DNA of 64,000 nucleotides from Sandaracinaceae bacterium (GTDB lineage: Bacteria; Myxococcota_A; Polyangia; Polyangiales; Sandaracinaceae): assembly GCA_040218145.1 (NCBI GenBank), contig JAVJQK010000014.1, forward strand, positions 1 through 64,000, written 5' to 3'. Below, in pieces: positions 53,565 through 62,268 of this stretch (position 1 is its first letter; each line of letters starts with the position of its first letter). The notes below the pieces were generated by a model. The model did not search any database and was not told where the DNA came from. It saw only the letters and a list, made by a program, of their open reading frames with translations. The translations under genes were made by a program, and so were the position numbers.

Positions 53565-54875
53565 TCAGTCGTCCCCCCACCGCACGGTGAAGGCTTCGCA
53601 GGTCCAGGGGCCAGAGAAGCGGACCACGCGCACGTACGCCGTGCCCGTCTCGCTGCTCCCCACGCAGCTCGGGCTGAAGCGCACCTCGTCCGCGGCGGAG
53701 GCCCCCCGTCGGCTGCAGCAGCCGTTCAGCCCGCCGAAGGAGTCGGCCGATCCCTCGATGCAGCTGACGCCCACGTCGGCGCCGTCGCAGTCCCAGTACA
53801 CGCAGAGGTCGTAGTCGTTGGCCGGAGGGACGGAGCTGAGCTCCACGCGGGGCTCGACCTCGCCGCCGATGTCGTCGGTCACGCGGAAGCGGAACCAGTC
53901 CTCGTCGGAGACGGGATAGAGGCTCGCCTGGAACGAGCCCTCGGGCCACGCGGCGCGATCCGACACCGTGCCGAGGAGGCGCGCCGCGGTGCGGCTGTCG
54001 TTGGGCTCGGAGGAGTCCCGACGCGGCGTCCCGGTGCACGTGCCCGAGCCGTCGCAGGCGTCGTCGTCGGTGCACGCGTCGCCGTCGCTGCAGGAGAGGC
54101 CGACCTCGCTCGACCACTCCGTCGGCGCAGCGCGGTCGCAGACCTCACACTGGCTCCCCGGCCGACGCTCGCCGTCGCTCCAGCACATGCCGTCCACGAG
54201 GCACTGCCCGGCCGCGGGGCGTGACTCGCACTCGAAGGCGCCCGGTCCCGTCGACACGCAGGCGTCCGCGCTGCACGAGACCCCGTCATCGCAGCTCGCG
54301 GCGGGCCCGGGCAGGCAGACGCCGCCCCGGCAGCTGTCGCCCATCGTGCAGCCGTCGTCGTCCGCGTTGCAGGGCGCGCCCTCGGGGCGGGGGCCGCCGT
54401 CCGTGCACTCGCCCGTCGCAGGGTCGCAGGCGCCTCCGTCGAGGCACGGGTCGTCGCTGCTGCACTCCACCGGGTCCCCGACGCACTCCGCGCCCGCGCA
54501 GCGATCGAACTGGGTGCAGAGCTCGCCGTCCTCGCAGGGCGTGCCTTCTCGCTCGGGGTTCGGCACCCGCACGCACGCGCCGCCTTCACACCTGACGAGC
54601 CCGCAGGGACCCGGCGCGACGCGCCCCTCGCAGTCCGCCTCGGACTCACAACGCAGACACTCGGGATCTTGGAGGTGGCCGCATCCCCCTTCGACACAGC
54701 GGTCGAGGGTGCATCCGTCCCCGTCGTCGCAGTCGACGTCTTCGAAGCAATCCGGCGTGGGCCCCGCGTCCTCCGCGGAGGCGTCCATCGTGCCGCCGTC
54801 CGGCGCGGCGGGCGCCGAGCAGGCCAGCGCGGTCGCGGCGAGGAGGCTGAGCAGGCTTCTCACTCGTCCGCTCAC
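53565..54875 (-). CDS. Cys-rich lipoprotein with C-terminal PPC-like domain
   Basis: 436 residues from a GTG that overlaps the upstream gene's stop (GTGA). The lipobox is ALAC. Multiple Cys-rich units follow the pattern C-x-DG-x-x-C, such as DCDDGDGCTLDRC, CNADDDGCTMGDSC and CSDGDACTDDDAC. The last 130 residues form a PPC-like beta sandwich (EPNDSRTAARLLG, SDEDWFRFRV). Predicted outer-surface protein. Confidence 0.8.
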   Translation of the reverse strand: MSGRVRSLLSLLAATALACSAPAAPDGGTMDASAEDAGPTPDCFEDVDCDDGDGCTLDRCVEGGCGHLQDPECLRCESEADCEGRVAPGPCGLVRCEGGACVRVPNPEREGTPCEDGELCTQFDRCAGAECVGDPVECSSDDPCLDGGACDPATGECTDGGPRPEGAPCNADDDGCTMGDSCRGGVCLPGPAASCDDGVSCSADACVSTGPGAFECESRPAAGQCLVDGMCWSDGERRPGSQCEVCDRAAPTEWSSEVGLSCSDGDACTDDDACDGSGTCTGTPRRDSSEPNDSRTAARLLGTVSDRAAWPEGSFQASLYPVSDEDWFRFRVTDDIGGEVEPRVELSSVPPANDYDLCVYWDCDGADVGVSCIEGSADSFGGLNGCCSRRGASAADEVRFSPSCVGSSETGTAYVRVVRFSGPWTCEAFTVRWGDD

Positions 54876-56350
54876 ATGCAGTAGGCGGGGGAGCGCTCGT
54901 CGGGTCGCTCGCAGCGCGCCCCGCACTCGACCACGTTCAGCGCGCCGGCCCGACAGTAGCGGAGGCTCGCGCCGTGACAGGCGCCGCCCCCGTCCACGTC
55001 GCCGCAACCCTCCACGCAGGCGAACCGATCCTCACCGTGCGCGAAGCCGCAGCCGAGCCCCTCGAGGGCGCAGTCGCGGACCACCACCTCGCCGTCCACG
55101 CAATCGGTGAGCACACCCGCGAGGCAGCTCCCCTGGGGTGGGACCTCGCCACAGCTCGAAGCCGGGGGCGGGGGCTCGGGCGGCGTCATCAGCGCCTCGC
55201 TCGTCTCCGACTCGTGGAACACGAGCCCGACGTCGAAGAGCTGCCGGTCCCAGACCCCGAGCGCGCTCCCGATGACGGGGACCTGCGCGTCGATCCCGAC
55301 CTCGCCGTAGACGCCCACCGTGCCCAGGTGCCACCCGTCGTCCCGCACCATGCGCACGTTCGGTTGCACGTGCACGTACGGCCCGGCGACGTCGTAGAGC
55401 ATCACGGAGAGCTTGGCGTAGACGAACATCTGCACCGCCGCGAGCGAGCCGCTCCCCGAGACCGAGGCCCGGGCGTCGCGGATCTCGAAGGTGCGCTCGC
55501 CGATGTCGCTCCACTCGCCGTCCTCGAGGACCGTGCCGAGGGCCACGGTGGAGTCGATCCCGCCGCCGATGTCGACGACGAGGTTGCCGTCGACCTCGAG
55601 CCCGACGCCGACCCCGAGCTCGAGCGTGACGACCTCCACCACCGGCACGGGGCCGATGAAGTGGAAGAACGGTCGCTCCCACTTCCAGAGCTCGTGGCTG
55701 TAGCCCAGCGACTGGTTGTCCGCGCGAACGTCGACGTGCACGTGGAGGTCCGCCTGGAGGTCCCCCGCGGCGCGCAGCAGCAAGTGGTCGACCCGGCGAT
55801 CGTGGACGTCGAGCTCGAAGTCGAGCGCGGGGTCGAAGTCGAGCTGGCCCTCGACGTCGACGTCCATGCTCAGCCCCTCGTGGACGCGCTGCGGACCGAA
55901 GACCGTGCGGAACTCCGCGACCTCGAGCGCCTCGCGCGCGGCCCCGACGGATCCCTCCGCGCTGTCCGAGAGCTGGCCGCCCCGCTCGATGAGCCGCTCG
56001 CGCAGCCGCATCTCCACGACCGCGTCGCCCAGCTCCGCGGGCGCGGTGGTGATCACCACCTCGTCCCCCACCGCCTCGACGCTGCGCACGTGCCGAAGGA
56101 AGCCGCCCCGCACCGCGCTCGCCACGACGTGCGAGGTGTCGAGCGCGAGGAGATCCTCGTGCCCGCCGAGGGGGAGACGCACGGTCTCGGCGTCGAACAC
56201 CACGGCCTCGTCGTCGATGACCACGACCCCCTCCGACGCGATCCCGGTGACCCCACCGGGCGCGTCACTGGCGCACGCGGTGAGGAGCGCGATGAGGAAG
56301 GGGAGGCACGCGGTCGACGCGAAGCCGGCGGAACTGCGGAGGAAAGTCAC
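54872..56350 (-). CDS. Hypothetical lipoprotein with C-terminal Cys-rich region
   Basis: 492 residues from a GTG at 56350, giving a leader with the lipobox LLTAC; an in-frame start at 56422 would add 24 residues. The centre is a large beta-rich domain with no recognised family. The last 80 residues contain twelve or more Cys residues. Its upstream region is the palindromic element at 56426-56594. Coupled to the next lipoprotein. Confidence 0.7.
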   Translation of the reverse strand: MTFLRSSAGFASTACLPFLIALLTACASDAPGGVTGIASEGVVVIDDEAVVFDAETVRLPLGGHEDLLALDTSHVVASAVRGGFLRHVRSVEAVGDEVVITTAPAELGDAVVEMRLRERLIERGGQLSDSAEGSVGAAREALEVAEFRTVFGPQRVHEGLSMDVDVEGQLDFDPALDFELDVHDRRVDHLLLRAAGDLQADLHVHVDVRADNQSLGYSHELWKWERPFFHFIGPVPVVEVVTLELGVGVGLEVDGNLVVDIGGGIDSTVALGTVLEDGEWSDIGERTFEIRDARASVSGSGSLAAVQMFVYAKLSVMLYDVAGPYVHVQPNVRMVRDDGWHLGTVGVYGEVGIDAQVPVIGSALGVWDRQLFDVGLVFHESETSEALMTPPEPPPPASSCGEVPPQGSCLAGVLTDCVDGEVVVRDCALEGLGCGFAHGEDRFACVEGCGDVDGGGACHGASLRYCRAGALNVVECGARCERPDERSPAYCM

Positions 56351-56425: not shown

Positions 56426-56594
56426 CTAGCAGGGTCCGGCGAAGATGCGCGCGATGCATCGCCGAGCGCGACGGCGTGTCCAGCGCGCTGGGCCGACGAC
56501 GAAATGCTGAAGCATTTCGGAGGAGCGACTGGCGCGCTGGGCGCGCTGTCCCGCCGGCGAGGCGCGCGCAGTCATCTTTGCCTGACACTGCTAG
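56426..56594. mobile_element. Palindromic MITE-like element, copy 1
   Basis: 169 bases. The ends are CTAGCAG and CTGCTAG. The two arms (83 and 84 bases) pair over most of their length; matching blocks include AAGATG, TCGCCG and CAGCGCGC. The centre is GAAATGCT-GA-AGCATTTC. No transposase lies inside, and no target-site duplication was seen. It has the same ends and centre as copy 2. It lies between the lipoprotein gene and egtB. Confidence 0.75.
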
Positions 56595-56603
56595 AGTTCG
56601 CGC

Positions 56604-57827
56604 ATGCTGGATCTGCGCGCTCGCTATCGTGACGTCCGGGCCTTCTCGAGGGAGCTGGCCGCGCCGCTGGCCCCCGAGGACATGGTCGTGCAGTCGATGC
56701 CCGACGTCAGCCCGACGAAGTGGCACCTCGCCCACACGAGCTGGTTCTTCGAGACGTTCGTGGTCAGCGAAGCCCTGGCCGGCTACGAGCCGCTCGACCC
56801 CGCCTACGCGGTGCTCTTCAACAGCTACTACAACACCATCGGCGCGCAGTTCCCGAGGCCGCGGCGCGGTCTCCTGTCGCGCCCCACCGTCGAGCAGGTG
56901 ATGGCCTACCGCGCGCACGTGGACGCGAAGATGGAGGAGGTCTTCGCGGCGGGCGTCAGCGACGCGCTGGCGTCGGTCATCGAGGTGGGCTGTCACCACG
57001 AGGAGCAGCACCAGGAGCTGCTCCTGACCGACATCAAGCACGTCTTCGCGCAGAACCCGCTGCACCCGCGCTACCAGGACGCGCTCGACGAGCGGCCGGG
57101 AGAGAGCCCCCCGCTCGCCTGGACGCGCTTCGACGAGGGCGTGCGCGAGATCGGGTTCGAGGGCGCAGGCTTCCACTTCGACAACGAGGGGCCGCGGCAC
57201 CGCGTGTTCCTGGAGTCCTTCTCGCTCGCGTCGCGGCCCGTGAGCTGCGGCGACTACGTCGCCTTCATCGAGGACGGCGGCTACGGCCAGCACGCGCTCT
57301 GGCACTCCGAGGGCTGGGCCGCGGTCCAGGAGCACGGCTGGGCGGCGCCCGCGTACTGGAAGAAAACGCAAGACGGGTGGCATGTGTTCACGCTGCGAGG
57401 GCTCCGCCCGTTGAACCCGGCCGAGCCGGTCGCGCACGTGAGCTGGTTCGAGGCGTCTGCGTACGCGGAGTGGGCGGGCGCGCGGCTGCCGACCGAGGCC
57501 GAGTGGGAGGTGGCGTCGGCCGACGCGGGCGCGGAGGGCGCGTTCGTGGACGACCGACGCTTCCACCCGAAGCCGTCGGCGGCGGGGGAGCTGTCGGGCA
57601 TGTTCGGCGACGTCTGGGAGTGGACCGCGAGCCCCTACGTGCCCTACCCGGGCTACCGGGCGCTGCCGGGCGCGCTCGGCGAATACAACGGAAAGTTCAT
57701 GGCCAACCAGTACGTGCTGCGAGGCGGGGCGTGCACGACGCGACGGGCCCACACGCGACCGACCTACCGCAACTTCTTCCCGTCGGGCGCGCGCTGGCAG
57801 CTCTCGGGGTTCCGGCTCGCGAAGTAG
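56604..57827 (+). CDS. egtB: Ergothioneine biosynthesis sulfoxide synthase EgtB
   Basis: 407 residues. The DinB-like N-terminal domain supplies iron ligands: His44 in HLAHTSWFFE and His132/His136 in HHEEQHQEL. The C-terminal FGE-sulfatase domain (from about 180) contains VAHVSWFEASAYAEW, RLPTEAEWEVAS, FGDVWEWTAS and LRGGACTT. EgtB joins a hercynine-type substrate to a thiol (cysteine or gamma-glutamylcysteine) in ergothioneine synthesis. The methyltransferase EgtD is not in the window. The start lies 9 bases after palindromic copy 1. Confidence 0.93.
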   Translation: MLDLRARYRDVRAFSRELAAPLAPEDMVVQSMPDVSPTKWHLAHTSWFFETFVVSEALAGYEPLDPAYAVLFNSYYNTIGAQFPRPRRGLLSRPTVEQVMAYRAHVDAKMEEVFAAGVSDALASVIEVGCHHEEQHQELLLTDIKHVFAQNPLHPRYQDALDERPGESPPLAWTRFDEGVREIGFEGAGFHFDNEGPRHRVFLESFSLASRPVSCGDYVAFIEDGGYGQHALWHSEGWAAVQEHGWAAPAYWKKTQDGWHVFTLRGLRPLNPAEPVAHVSWFEASAYAEWAGARLPTEAEWEVASADAGAEGAFVDDRRFHPKPSAAGELSGMFGDVWEWTASPYVPYPGYRALPGALGEYNGKFMANQYVLRGGACTTRRAHTRPTYRNFFPSGARWQLSGFRLAK

Positions 57828-58771: not shown

Positions 58772-60808
58772 CTACGCGTCTCGCGGGACGCGCTCGTCCC
58801 AGCTCGCGGCGTGCACGCGCGTCTCTCCCTCGAACGCCTCGAGCTCGGCCTGCACCCGGAACGACGCGGCGTCGGAGGAGAGGCGCGTCCGCGTGATCAC
58901 GCGCGTCTGCCAGTCGCCGCGGCGGTAGATGGCGTCGTGCACGACCTCGCCGGTGGCCGAGAGCGGGTCGCCCTCGAGGATCCGGAAGCGCTCGACCATG
59001 CCGTGGCCGTGCTCCATGCCGGTCGCCTCGACGCGGGTCATCGCGGGCGCGCCGTCGTCGTCGAGGTCGGTGGTGAGCGTGTGCGTGACCACCCCCGTGA
59101 TGGCGTCGCGCTCGATGGTGCGCACGGCGCCGCCCGGGTGGAGGTCCACGATGTCGGTGCCCGGCGCGGCCTCGGCGGGCGCGAACGCGCGGAGCGCCGC
59201 GTCCTCGGCGCGCGGCGGGCGTGTGGGGAGGGTCAGCGCGCTCCCCGCCGTGTGCACGTCGAGGGTCACGGGCGTCGGCGCCGGCCAGGCCATGGGCCAG
59301 TAGCTGGTGGAGAGGGCGAGGCGGAGGCGATGGCCGGCGTCGAAGGCGTGCGCGACGTCGTTGAGCCGCACCTCCACCTCGACCACGCGGCCAGGCTCGA
59401 GGGGGGACGGCGTCTCGTGGCTCTCCCGGTGCGTAAGCGCGAGCAGGCCGTAGGTGACGAGGTTGGACGCCCCCGTCGGCGCGACGTCGCAGAGGCGCAC
59501 GGCGAGGAGCGCGATGGGAGAATCGGACGCGACCCGGAGCCGCAGGACGGGCGCGCCGAGGATCTCGAGCGGCGCGTCGAGCGTGGCCGACGAGAAGGCG
59601 AGGCTGCGCCCGTCGTCCTCGCGCTGATCGCGCGGCATCTCGCCTTCCATGCCGAACGCGCACCAGCTGCCGCCCGCGAGGCCGGTCACCTGCGGCGAGC
59701 GCACGCGGAGCACGACGTTCTGCGCCTCGACGGTCTCCGCGTCGGAGGGCGACACGAGGCGTCCGTCGGCGAGCCCGAGCGCGCGCGGCTCGATCCGCGG
59801 CGAGGGCCAGGTCTCCTCGGCGACCCAGCGGCCCGGGCGCTCGTCGTAGTAGGACTTCGGCGGGACGCTCCGCTGCATCCACACCCGGTAGCGCGGGTCG
59901 TCGTCGGGCTGGCCGCCGTTCAGCCAGGCGTCCCACCATCGCAACGCTTCTTGCAAGAACCCGATGGCCGGCCGCGGGATCCCCTCGTGCGGATAGACGT
60001 GCGCCCAGGGACCGACCAGGCCCTTGCGGGGCACGTCGAGCGAGGCGAGCAGGCGCGGCACGGCGTTCGAGTAGGCGTCGGCCCAGCCGCTGACCAGGAA
60101 GACGGGGCAGCGGATCCGGGACGGGTCCTCGCAGACCGAGCCGTGCTTCCAGTACGCGTCGCGATGCGGGTGGCGCATCCAGCGCGCGACGTAGAGGGGC
60201 AGCGCCTCGAGCCGGCGCATCCACATCTCTCGCCAGCGCGCGCCGACCACCTGCGGGTCGGGCGGCAGCGCGGCGAGCGTGAACAGCCCCGAGCCCCAGA
60301 TGAGGTTCTCGTTCAAGAGCGCGCCGCCCATGTAGTGCGCGTCGTCGGCGTACCGATCGTCGGACGCGCAGACGACGAGGATGGCGGCGAGGGCGGGGGG
60401 CTGCCGGGCCGCGACCTGCAGCGCGTTGAAGCCGCCCCACGACTTCCCCATCATGCCGACCTTCCCGCTGCACCAGGGCTGGGCGGCGATCCACGCGATG
60501 ACCTCGAGCGCGTCGTCGATCTCCTGCGCGTCGTACTCGTCGACCAGCACCCCGCCCGAGTCCCCGGTGCCGCGGAGATCCACCCGGACGGCCGCGTAGC
60601 CATGCCCCGCGAAGTAGCGGTGCATCGGATCGTCCCGCTCCCGCGTCCCGTCCGCCTTCCGGTAGGGGATGTACTCGAGCACCGCCGGCGCGGGCACGTC
60701 CTGGTCGGGGATCCAGAGCCGCGCGGCGAGCCGCGTGCCATCCGAGAGCGGGATGAAGACGTTCTCGATCTCGCGAAAGCGCTGCGGCAGATCGGAGATG
60801 ACACGCAT
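58772..60808 (-). CDS. CocE/NonD-family hydrolase (X-Pro dipeptidyl-peptidase S15 type)
   Basis: 678 residues. The nucleophile Ser123 sits in GKSWGG. The second and third triad members fit SGWADAY and GPWAHVYP. The C-terminal beta-jelly roll typical of the family begins about residue 360. Members cleave cocaine esters, glutaryl-7-ACA-like amides or X-Pro peptides; which applies here is unknown. The start is 16 bases from palindromic copy 2. Confidence 0.9.
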   Translation of the reverse strand: MRVISDLPQRFREIENVFIPLSDGTRLAARLWIPDQDVPAPAVLEYIPYRKADGTRERDDPMHRYFAGHGYAAVRVDLRGTGDSGGVLVDEYDAQEIDDALEVIAWIAAQPWCSGKVGMMGKSWGGFNALQVAARQPPALAAILVVCASDDRYADDAHYMGGALLNENLIWGSGLFTLAALPPDPQVVGARWREMWMRRLEALPLYVARWMRHPHRDAYWKHGSVCEDPSRIRCPVFLVSGWADAYSNAVPRLLASLDVPRKGLVGPWAHVYPHEGIPRPAIGFLQEALRWWDAWLNGGQPDDDPRYRVWMQRSVPPKSYYDERPGRWVAEETWPSPRIEPRALGLADGRLVSPSDAETVEAQNVVLRVRSPQVTGLAGGSWCAFGMEGEMPRDQREDDGRSLAFSSATLDAPLEILGAPVLRLRVASDSPIALLAVRLCDVAPTGASNLVTYGLLALTHRESHETPSPLEPGRVVEVEVRLNDVAHAFDAGHRLRLALSTSYWPMAWPAPTPVTLDVHTAGSALTLPTRPPRAEDAALRAFAPAEAAPGTDIVDLHPGGAVRTIERDAITGVVTHTLTTDLDDDGAPAMTRVEATGMEHGHGMVERFRILEGDPLSATGEVVHDAIYRRGDWQTRVITRTRLSSDAASFRVQAELEAFEGETRVHAASWDERVPRDA

Positions 60809-60823
60809 GAAGCGGGGGATAGT

Positions 60824-60990
60824 CTAGCAGTCCGTTGAAGAACCTCGCTCCTCGTCTCTCGGGCGGGACGACCCGTCTCTCGGCCCGTGTCTCCTCGGAA
60901 ATGCTCAAGCATTTCCTCGTCGCCCCGAACCGAGAACCGGGCCGTCGCGCTCCGAGATCCTTCGGGCTCGGTACTTCAACGGCCTGCTAG
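60824..60990. mobile_element. Palindromic MITE-like element, copy 2
   Basis: 167 bases. The ends are CTAGCAGTCCGTTGAAG and its near-complement with CTAGCAGGCCGTTGAAG, pairing 15 of the first 16 bases. The arms pair through to the centre GGAAATGCT-CA-AGCATTTCC. No gene inside. The position, between the CocE-like and ATP-grasp genes that are divergent, could affect both promoters. Confidence 0.78.
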
Positions 60991-61002: not shown

Positions 61003-62268
61003 GTGCCGACCATCCGCGTCGTCTTTCCCACCGAGTGGGACCAGAGGCAGCTCGCGCGCGTCGCCGAGGCGGAGGGCTACGACGTGCAGTGGGCGACGCC
61101 CGACGACGACGCCTGCCCGTGGGACCTCGACGCGCTCGGGCTCATCGAGGCGGAGGTCGCGCGCGGAGGCTTCGACGGGGTGTTCAGCTCGAGCGACTAC
61201 CCGGGCGCGACGGTGGCCGGGGCGATCGCGACGCGCCTGGGCCTGCCCGGGACGCGCCCCGAAGACGTCATCCGCTGCTCCCACAAGTACTACTCCCGCG
61301 TCGCCCAGCGCGAGGTCGCGCCCGACGCCACGCCGCCCTTCTGGCTGGTGGACCCGGACGCCCCGGGCGACGACATCGCGTTCCCCTGCTTCGTCAAACC
61401 GGTGAAGGGCGCGTTCAGCGTCATGTCGGCCCGCATCGGATCGCGCCCCGAGCTGCTCGCGTTCTTGAACAAGCCCTCCGCGCGCGAGTTCCTCAGCAGC
61501 TACGTCGCGATCTTCAACCAGCTGGTCCGCGGCCTGACCGACCTCGAGGTCGACGGACGCTTCTTCCTCGCGGAGGGCCTGCTGACCGGGCGGCAGGCCA
61601 CGGTCGAGGGCTACGTGGGCGAAGACGGCGCGCACCTCGTCGGCATCGTCGACTCCGTCCGACACCCGCGCACCAAGAGCTTCGTTCGCTTCGACTACCC
61701 CTCGTCGCTGAGCAAGCGCCTGCAAGAGAAGGCGTGGGAGGTCAGCCGCCGCGCGGTCGAGCGGCTCGGCCTGAGGCACTCCATGTTCAACGTGGAGGTG
61801 ATGATCGACGCGGCGCGCGAGCGGGTCTCCATCGTGGAGATCAACCCGCGCATGTGCGGCCAGTTCGCCGACCTCTACGAGCTGGTCGACGGAGTGGGCG
61901 GCTACTCCATCGCGCTCGCGCTCGCCGCGGGCCGGCCCCCGCCGCGGAAGAGGCGACAGGGCGCGCACGCGGTCGCGGCGAGCGTCCCCTTGCGCATCTT
62001 CGAGCGCTCGGTGGTGGAGCACGCGCCGAGCGAGGACGACCTGCGGCGCGCGGAGGCGCTCTTCCCCGGCACGCTCTGCTGGAGCGAGTGCGAGACCGGC
62101 GCGCGCCTCGACGACTTCGAGACGTGCGAGGACGGCCAGAGCGCGCGCTACGCGATCGTGAACCTCGGGGCGCCCAGCCGGGAGGCGCTCCAGGCCCGGC
62201 TCGCCCAGGTGAAGGCCACCCTGGGCTTCCGCTTCGTCTCGCTCGACGCGACGCCGTCCGCGCCGTAG
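61003..62268 (+). CDS. ATP-grasp domain protein
   Basis: 421 residues from a GTG. ATP-grasp fold: CFVKPVKGAFSVMSAR is the nucleotide-binding segment and SIVEINPRMCGQFADLYE carries the metal ligands Glu and Asn. Substrate unknown; such proteins often make amide bonds in peptide or natural-product pathways. The next gene is a lipoprotein, and no obvious pathway partners are nearby. Confidence 0.88.
   Translation: MPTIRVVFPTEWDQRQLARVAEAEGYDVQWATPDDDACPWDLDALGLIEAEVARGGFDGVFSSSDYPGATVAGAIATRLGLPGTRPEDVIRCSHKYYSRVAQREVAPDATPPFWLVDPDAPGDDIAFPCFVKPVKGAFSVMSARIGSRPELLAFLNKPSAREFLSSYVAIFNQLVRGLTDLEVDGRFFLAEGLLTGRQATVEGYVGEDGAHLVGIVDSVRHPRTKSFVRFDYPSSLSKRLQEKAWEVSRRAVERLGLRHSMFNVEVMIDAARERVSIVEINPRMCGQFADLYELVDGVGGYSIALALAAGRPPPRKRRQGAHAVAASVPLRIFERSVVEHAPSEDDLRRAEALFPGTLCWSECETGARLDDFETCEDGQSARYAIVNLGAPSREALQARLAQVKATLGFRFVSLDATPSAP

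Follow-up and report, generated by a model that had tools for sequence, protein, structure and literature searches.

Palindromic MITEs of a Sandaracinaceae bacterium share a conserved hairpin tip and a better-folding strand across families with different terminal repeats

The palindrome at 56426-56594 of the analysed window, by which we mean the whole stretch of 64,000 nucleotides, is a non-autonomous mobile element (MITE), as shown by its ends, its flanks and an empty insertion site. By comparison of related elements at the sequence level, the tip of its hairpin is the best-conserved part from family to family, while the terminal repeats and arms have changed. We give roughly an even chance to the complete explanation, namely a MITE of which the hairpin of one particular strand, the GA strand, most likely acting as RNA, is needed for the element's own spread or persistence.

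The element, termed A, is exactly 169 bp long, starting with CTAGCAG and ending with CTGCTAG, just as the first-pass annotation had described it. Its plus strand is the GA strand, that is, the better-folding strand, and near-identical copies are found elsewhere in the genome. The ends are of the CTAGCAG-N-CCGTTGAAG type. The left terminal inverted repeat CTAGCAGGGTCCGGCGAAGA (56426-56445, plus strand) aligns with the IS5/IS1182-like terminal repeat of other families and has its counterpart in the right terminal inverted repeat (56575-56594, minus strand). The outermost CTAG on the left (56426-56429) and on the right (56591-56594) are target-site copies, as indicated by the sequence, the flank comparison and the empty site. 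The centre, GAAATGCT-GA-AGCATTTC (also given as GAAATGCTGAAGCATTTC), occupies 56501-56518. From sequence and folding, it forms the tip stem-loop GAAATGC-TGAA-GCATTTC on the plus strand, framed by GA-C-GA (56495-56499) and GA-G-GA (56520-56524), the 5' and 3' sides of two GA/GA internal loops on the same strand. All of these lie in the conserved tip module (56483-56536, plus strand), which scored 71.9 bits (E 1.5e-11) with R1, a model of the tip comprising 54 positions. The end-to-end fold of the element has a predicted energy of -129.5 kcal/mol, compared with a mean of -89.9 (sd 4.2) for 200 dinucleotide shuffles, none of which was as low (z = -9.5). Mismatches between the arms had been described as scattered; they are indeed present, but near the tip they are regularly G opposite A rather than scattered.

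The same ends and centre had been noted to recur at 60824, and we located a second hairpin MITE there, of 167 bp (60824-60990), which was assigned to subfamily C from its sequence, the comparison of copies and model R1, with its GA strand on the minus strand. Its terminal repeats are CTAGCAGTCCGTTGAAGAAC (60824-60843, plus strand) and CTAGCAGGCCGTTGAAGTAC (60971-60990, minus strand), and its tip module (60880-60933, minus strand) scored 70.3 bits (E 3.5e-11). Within the window, the centre was found only in the element at 56501 and at 60898, and never in 100 shuffles. Both elements occupy gaps between divergent genes, the start codons of which are 9-75 bp away. Element A lies between a gene without a Pfam match (54872-56350, minus strand; start about 75 bp away) and a gene with DinB_2 and FGE-sulfatase domains (56604-57827, plus strand; start 9 bp away), for which we infer an EgtB-like architecture. 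The neighbours of the second element encode a peptidase S15 (X-Pro dipeptidyl-peptidase; 58772-60808, minus strand; start 15 bp away) and an ATP-grasp protein (61003-62268, plus strand; start 12 bp away).

A search of the genome for further copies had been proposed in the first-pass annotation, where their absence was to count against a mobile repeat. In the 11.06-Mb genome (148 contigs), copies turned out to be abundant: the inner 14-mer of the centre occurs 82 times, the centre with N at one position 41 times, and the corresponding reversed control patterns not at all. R1 gave 124 matches, and the terminal repeat CTAGCAGNCCGTTGAAGAAC was found about 100 times with up to three mismatches. Three subfamilies could be distinguished, A (GGGTCCGGCG ends; the element at 56426), B (CGCGCGGCG ends) and C (TCCGTTGAAGAAC ends; the element at 60824), each with near-identical copies, and subfamily C also includes rearranged ones. 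One copy (L135 1499-1667; G000:C120:34998-35166) is a hybrid, belonging to subfamily A in its left half and to B in its right, which we take as evidence that copies have recombined near the tip. Many contigs start or stop inside a copy, and the assembly is fragmented because repeat copies sit at the contig breaks. None of the plasmids and phages searched carried the element, and Rfam returned 0 matches above the gathering cut-off for 14 loci, the majority of which contain elements.

The flanks of the copies are unrelated except for CTAG, which is present on both sides. An empty site, GGGGCTAGAAGCGCC, with one CTAG, is uninterrupted in L022, L037 and L138, and in L144 with one nearby difference. 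In the same repeated unit when filled, element B (L006) or A (L014) begins at that CTAG, and the opposite half-site was found in L001 and L011. One CTAG in the empty site and a CTAG on each side in the filled one, for which the half-sites were drawn from different copies of the unit, indicate target duplication on insertion. The tetranucleotide is about eightfold depleted in the window (8 occurrences versus about 61 expected), and four of the eight are element ends; the 58 free CTAG sites in the sampled sequence are intergenic in 44 cases, form stop codons in 8 and lie inside genes in 6. No copy interrupts a gene as predicted with a simple codon-usage script. At 23 of the 64 gene ends facing a copy, the TAG stop codon is part of the element's own CTAG, and many other genes end within 10 bp. 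A special mechanism for targeting stop codons was considered and is unneeded, since CTAG is nearly absent from coding sequence; scarcity of the target together with selection against gene disruption accounts for the stop-codon positions.

We scanned 84,980 species genomes for TTCAACRGNCTGCTAG and obtained at least 119 stretches, those listed including Pseudomonas, Planctomycetota, Bradyrhizobium, Nitrospira, Myxococcales and others. In these other genomes, paired ends enclose either hairpins of 64-280 bp or elements of 1.2-1.6 kb, and several of the latter encode IS5-family (NF033581, E 4.7e-72 and 4.6e-82) or IS1182-like transposases. Autonomous elements sharing the terminal repeats were L191, L206, L189, L259 and L273, all from other genomes. 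A DDE transposase with matching ends, which the first-pass annotation had suggested looking for, is accordingly present in other genomes and not in this assembly. A search of this genome for DUF772 proteins found none, and G002 and G034, two other hairpin-rich genomes, are also without DUF772, an absence that weighs little because small multi-copy contigs may be missing from assemblies. Mobilisation in trans by an IS5/IS1182 enzyme would be the presumable route in this lineage. The only DDE_Tnp_1 gene of the genome was rejected as the partner, as it belongs to an IS1380 element with different ends. This IS1380-type insertion sequence (L287; G000:C119:1-2918) starts with CTAGGCCCCAATCAAGCGCC, and a multi-hairpin unit of about 180 bp starting CTAG[CTG]CCCGAATCAAGCGC, which may be its MITE, lies beside many copies of the palindrome.

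Many unrelated sites, shared terminal repeats, flanking CTAGs, empty sites and IS5/IS1182 genes with the same ends elsewhere all bear out the earlier suggestion of a MITE-type mobile repeat, and the element is short, non-coding, multi-copy and bounded by terminal inverted repeats. It resembles the MITEs of IS5/IS1182-type insertion sequences in its CTAGCAG-N-C[CT]GTTGAA terminal repeats, the CTAG on both sides, the lack of coding sequence and the many copies, but differs from them in being palindromic over its whole length and in having an interior tip conserved above the terminal repeats. The intergenic repeats R0 and R2 of Pseudomonas fluorescens also form hairpins, and resident insertion sequences have inverted repeats identical to theirs; as judged from their description, R0 and R2 differ in their length of 80-110 bp and variable core (PMC2718517). 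Correia/NEMIS, ERIC and YPAL are likewise short mobile hairpins beside genes, able to fold in transcripts, with ends and targets different from those of the present element (PMC2229807).

On one strand, the tip reads GA-C-GA, a stem of 6-8 bp with a short loop, and GA-G-GA, forming two or three GA/GA internal loops with single C-G pairs between them. At least one GA/GA loop was found in all 14 folded families, and at least two in 12 of the 14. R1 matched 94 times in G002, a relative from the same family, and it also matched within the same order (G004, G015, G017, G018, G023 and G034), in G052, G238 and G042, and in G063 and others from another family of the phylum. Where these matches were read out, most were full palindromes with other terminal sequences, of at least eight kinds (CTAGAGCACATCTC, CTAGAGCACCGATCCG, CTAGAGCGCTGACC, CTAGACTTGATTACG, CTAGACCGCGTGC, CTAGTGCAGAGATCC, CTAGAGAGTTGAACC and CTAGACCGCTCACGG), and G063 has one R1-tip palindrome with TTACTACGG ends. 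Several weaker matches in the phylum (e.g. G219, G183 and G137) lacked, by the script used, a GA core within a palindrome. The tip therefore outlasts the ends, the reverse of what is expected of a plain MITE. The open literature yielded no mention of the terminal sequences, which may be noted in ISfinder or in subscription journals, both outside the search. To our knowledge, and with ISfinder and closed journals outside our check, a strand-specific conserved tip common to families with unrelated ends is undescribed, and we know of no tandem GA/GA tip in Correia/NEMIS, ERIC or YPAL.

A locus from another family of the order, L365 (G238:C225), carries an F-type element (TGCAGGGATCCGAC... ends) close to the F type of the genome analysed here, which suggests transfer between families or long persistence. 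The type E hairpin in L100 (1579-1838; G002:C501) has four tandem CATGCCGGAGCACTCCGA-like tip units, possibly an expansion by slippage at the apex. L098 and L099, also from G002, contain half elements that break off at the tip (..CGAAATGCTGG), the state that loss of one arm at the apex would leave behind.

Outside the phylum, the 148-bp elements of Pseudomonas that have CTAGCAG ends differ in their tip (CAAGGCAAAAAC..GGCGAAAAAGCGGAGTTTAC..GTAAATGAGCATTTTGAGCC..TTTTTAACGCAGC), which likewise contains a GA/GA loop. Elements of Halomonas and Pseudomonas amygdali share this tip but have other ends (GGAGCCTCTGATTAAC and CTAGGGTCTGTACGAAAAG, respectively), which brings the terminal sequences seen with it to at least three. 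In about 45 unselected elements from other phyla, GA/GA loops made up 22 of the roughly 100 two-by-two loops, compared with 19 of 1334 (1.4%) in simulated mutated random palindromes. A regular expression for the exact GA-C-GA tip gave one chance-like match in other phyla, and R1 gave weak matches only, so it is the general occurrence of GA/GA loops and the separate gammaproteobacterial tip that link the phyla, not sequence identity. We tentatively suggest that the tandem GA/GA single-strand module might be the real unit of inheritance, carried, in two or more bacterial groups, by transposon ends with several specificities unrelated to one another, as a cassette that either recruits an available DDE transposase or makes a two-ended MITE out of a transposon end.

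Besides an A-like copy, G002 holds type E, with other ends and the same 109-bp interior, and type D, with the centre GAATCC/GGATTC. Families A, B, A', C, D and E align over their whole length, and 91.5% of the pair cells of their 46-pair consensus hairpin pair. Both sides had changed in 45 cells (16 +/- 3 in shuffles), and 24 pairs had double changes (12.5 +/- 2.2 in shuffles); with the partners slid by 1-3 columns, the control gave only 3-8 pairs. The sequences are few and the structure was derived from them, so that the slid control favours the hairpin, and the shuffles ignore relatedness. Standard pairs reached by a one-sided change between A-E were found in only 3 cells. Within the subfamilies, one-sided breaks predominated over double changes, with 43 versus 11 within A/B and 50 versus 3 within C (93 versus 14 in total). 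Inserted copies thus lose pairing, which indicates that it is the lineage of active elements, and not the inserted copies, that maintains the hairpin; the structure probably serves the spread of the element and not the host. A lack of pairing conservation among copies had been named as an argument against a conserved hairpin; between families, pairs are kept and double changes occur, whereas copies of one subfamily mostly break pairs.

To compare the strands on the arms alone, the tip was cut out and replaced by a tetraloop in 15 families, with the orientation taken from the tip alone. G-U pairs in the arms numbered 79 for the GA strand and 17 for the opposite strand, which would correspond to a binomial probability of 1e-10 for independent counts, whereas the families are related and their counts not independent. 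The GA strand was the more stable one in all 15 families. Folding of full elements favoured it in all 17 families, both with RNA parameters (by 7-35 kcal/mol) and with DNA parameters. In G052, a held-out family (L356) had G-U pairs at 8:0 and -111 versus -78 kcal/mol in favour of the GA strand, and the G063 family agrees (5:1). Changes inside subfamilies, which arose after insertion, lean the same way (24:12; p = 0.06 for the contrast with fixed differences), and part of the G-U lean may be mutational. The strand with the gammaproteobacterial tip was the more stable one in 12 of 15 cases, and elements from other phyla oriented by their GA loops had no G-U excess (72 versus 66). The earlier proposal of an RNA folding into one long hairpin agrees with the pairing across families and the better-folding strand, but single-stranded DNA would give the same signal.

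In the mechanism that we favour, an IS5/IS1182-type DDE transposase supplied from elsewhere would recognise both terminal repeats and insert the element into CTAG, leaving CTAG on each side. The GA strand would form one long hairpin, the tip of which consists of a short stem-loop above two or three GA/GA loops. This one-strand hairpin, most likely as RNA read from the element, would be needed for spread or persistence, for example as a landing site for a protein protecting or promoting the element. As inserted copies lose pairing, the structure apparently does not serve the adjoining host gene. RNA is favoured over single-stranded DNA, although not decided, because G-U pairs are so well tolerated; no promoter has been demonstrated for a GA-strand RNA.

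The same MITE might instead depend on single-stranded DNA, one strand of which is recognised as a hairpin in transposition or replication, like integron attC sites or the ends of IS200/IS605, and this is the least unlikely of the alternatives. It agrees with a strand specificity independent of gene direction and with DNA folding energies that favour the GA strand in every family. In addition, IS1272 of the IS1182 family was reported to target and replace stem-loops (PMC5678879, PMC4923244), and such interaction of IS1182-family enzymes with stem-loop DNA makes a structural role in transposition credible. IS1272 replaces a host stem-loop without target duplication, whereas here the stem-loop itself is mobile, with CTAG on both sides (PMC5678879, PMC4923244). 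The 4.6-fold G-U excess in the arms suits RNA better, as G-T is a mismatch in DNA, and the terminal repeats are those of DDE elements, which normally act on double-stranded ends. Moreover, neither Y1 locus of the genome has a hairpin copy alongside, and hairpin-rich G002 has no Y1 transposase.

An ordinary palindromic MITE, with a tip retained by common descent only, ends that drifted with the transposases and no role for a single strand, is unlikely. Palindromic MITEs are common (PMC2229807), and the decay after insertion by breaking of pairs would be expected of them. Terminal repeats, however, normally change last and here changed first, and neither the arms-only asymmetry nor the paired double changes would be expected without a single-strand constraint or copying between arms. 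Such copying is itself an explanation, which we consider rather unlikely: the palindromes would be renewed by a DNA process in which, owing to the tip, one arm is rewritten from the other by snap-back synthesis or arm conversion, and an adjoining transposon end would become a two-ended MITE. It would explain why the tip is kept while the ends and arms change in both arms together, and why there are so few G-U intermediates between A-E (3 one-sided cells as opposed to 45 changed on both sides), but it does not by itself predict a better-folding strand, and we found no autonomous insertion sequence with subterminal sequence matching the arms.

An RNA element serving the host at gene ends, as a terminator, an mRNA stabiliser or an RNase III site, is improbable. 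The avoidance of predicted genes and the frequent stop codons in or near the element's CTAG would fit it, and MITEs of Neisseria and Yersinia act on transcripts in published work (PMC2229807, PMC3733652). The near-absence of CTAG from coding sequence explains those positions, inserted copies lose pairing, and the GA strand shows no sense bias at the ends of neighbouring genes (19 sense, 30 antisense). There is thus no sign of read-through selection, and a cis-regulatory RNA of the host was rejected for this lack of bias.

Least probable, and rejected here, is the REP-type repeat offered in the first-pass annotation, a REP or REPIN mobilised by a REP-associated tyrosine transposase (RAYT): the genome has two Y1 transposase genes and the hairpin a conserved TAG motif at its foot, but neither of the two Y1 loci is flanked by hairpins, G002 is rich in hairpins without such a gene, and the ends match DDE elements. 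REPs are defined as imperfect palindromes of 20-40 bp with an unpaired GTAG or CGTC foot, or inverted pairs of these (PMC3733652), whereas the element is a single hairpin of 160-170 bp with CTAG within the paired end. REPs and REPINs with their RAYTs share with it the intergenic hairpins, the tens to hundreds of copies and the TAG foot, and differ in length, ends and the presence of a flanking RAYT (PMC3733652, PMC2817692). Another small repeat of the genome does look REP-like, with GTAGCAGGCAGCTGAAGAACGCGAGCGTTCTTCAGCTGCCTGCCCCTTGCCC followed by TGCCC runs (L150 2819, L151 2579, L152 2546, L155 2891, L156 3035 and L157 2751). A full Y1 (IS200-like) transposase gene, whose frame opens with translated CCCTTGCCC-type repeat runs, was found in L166 (1459-2295; G000:C113) and is possibly the partner of that repeat.

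Whereas MITEs are commonly regarded as empty transposon ends, in the present elements it is the folded interior that is kept and the ends that are exchangeable, with evidence that one particular strand must fold. The element accounts for the breaks of the 11-Mb assembly at repeats and for the many genes ending in the element's TAG. If the proposed explanation is true, bacterial repeats of a class that extends from Pseudomonas to Myxococcota would contain a signal in the form of structured RNA or single-stranded DNA, for which we found no assay, and the question of why so many bacterial MITEs are near-perfect palindromes would become directly testable.
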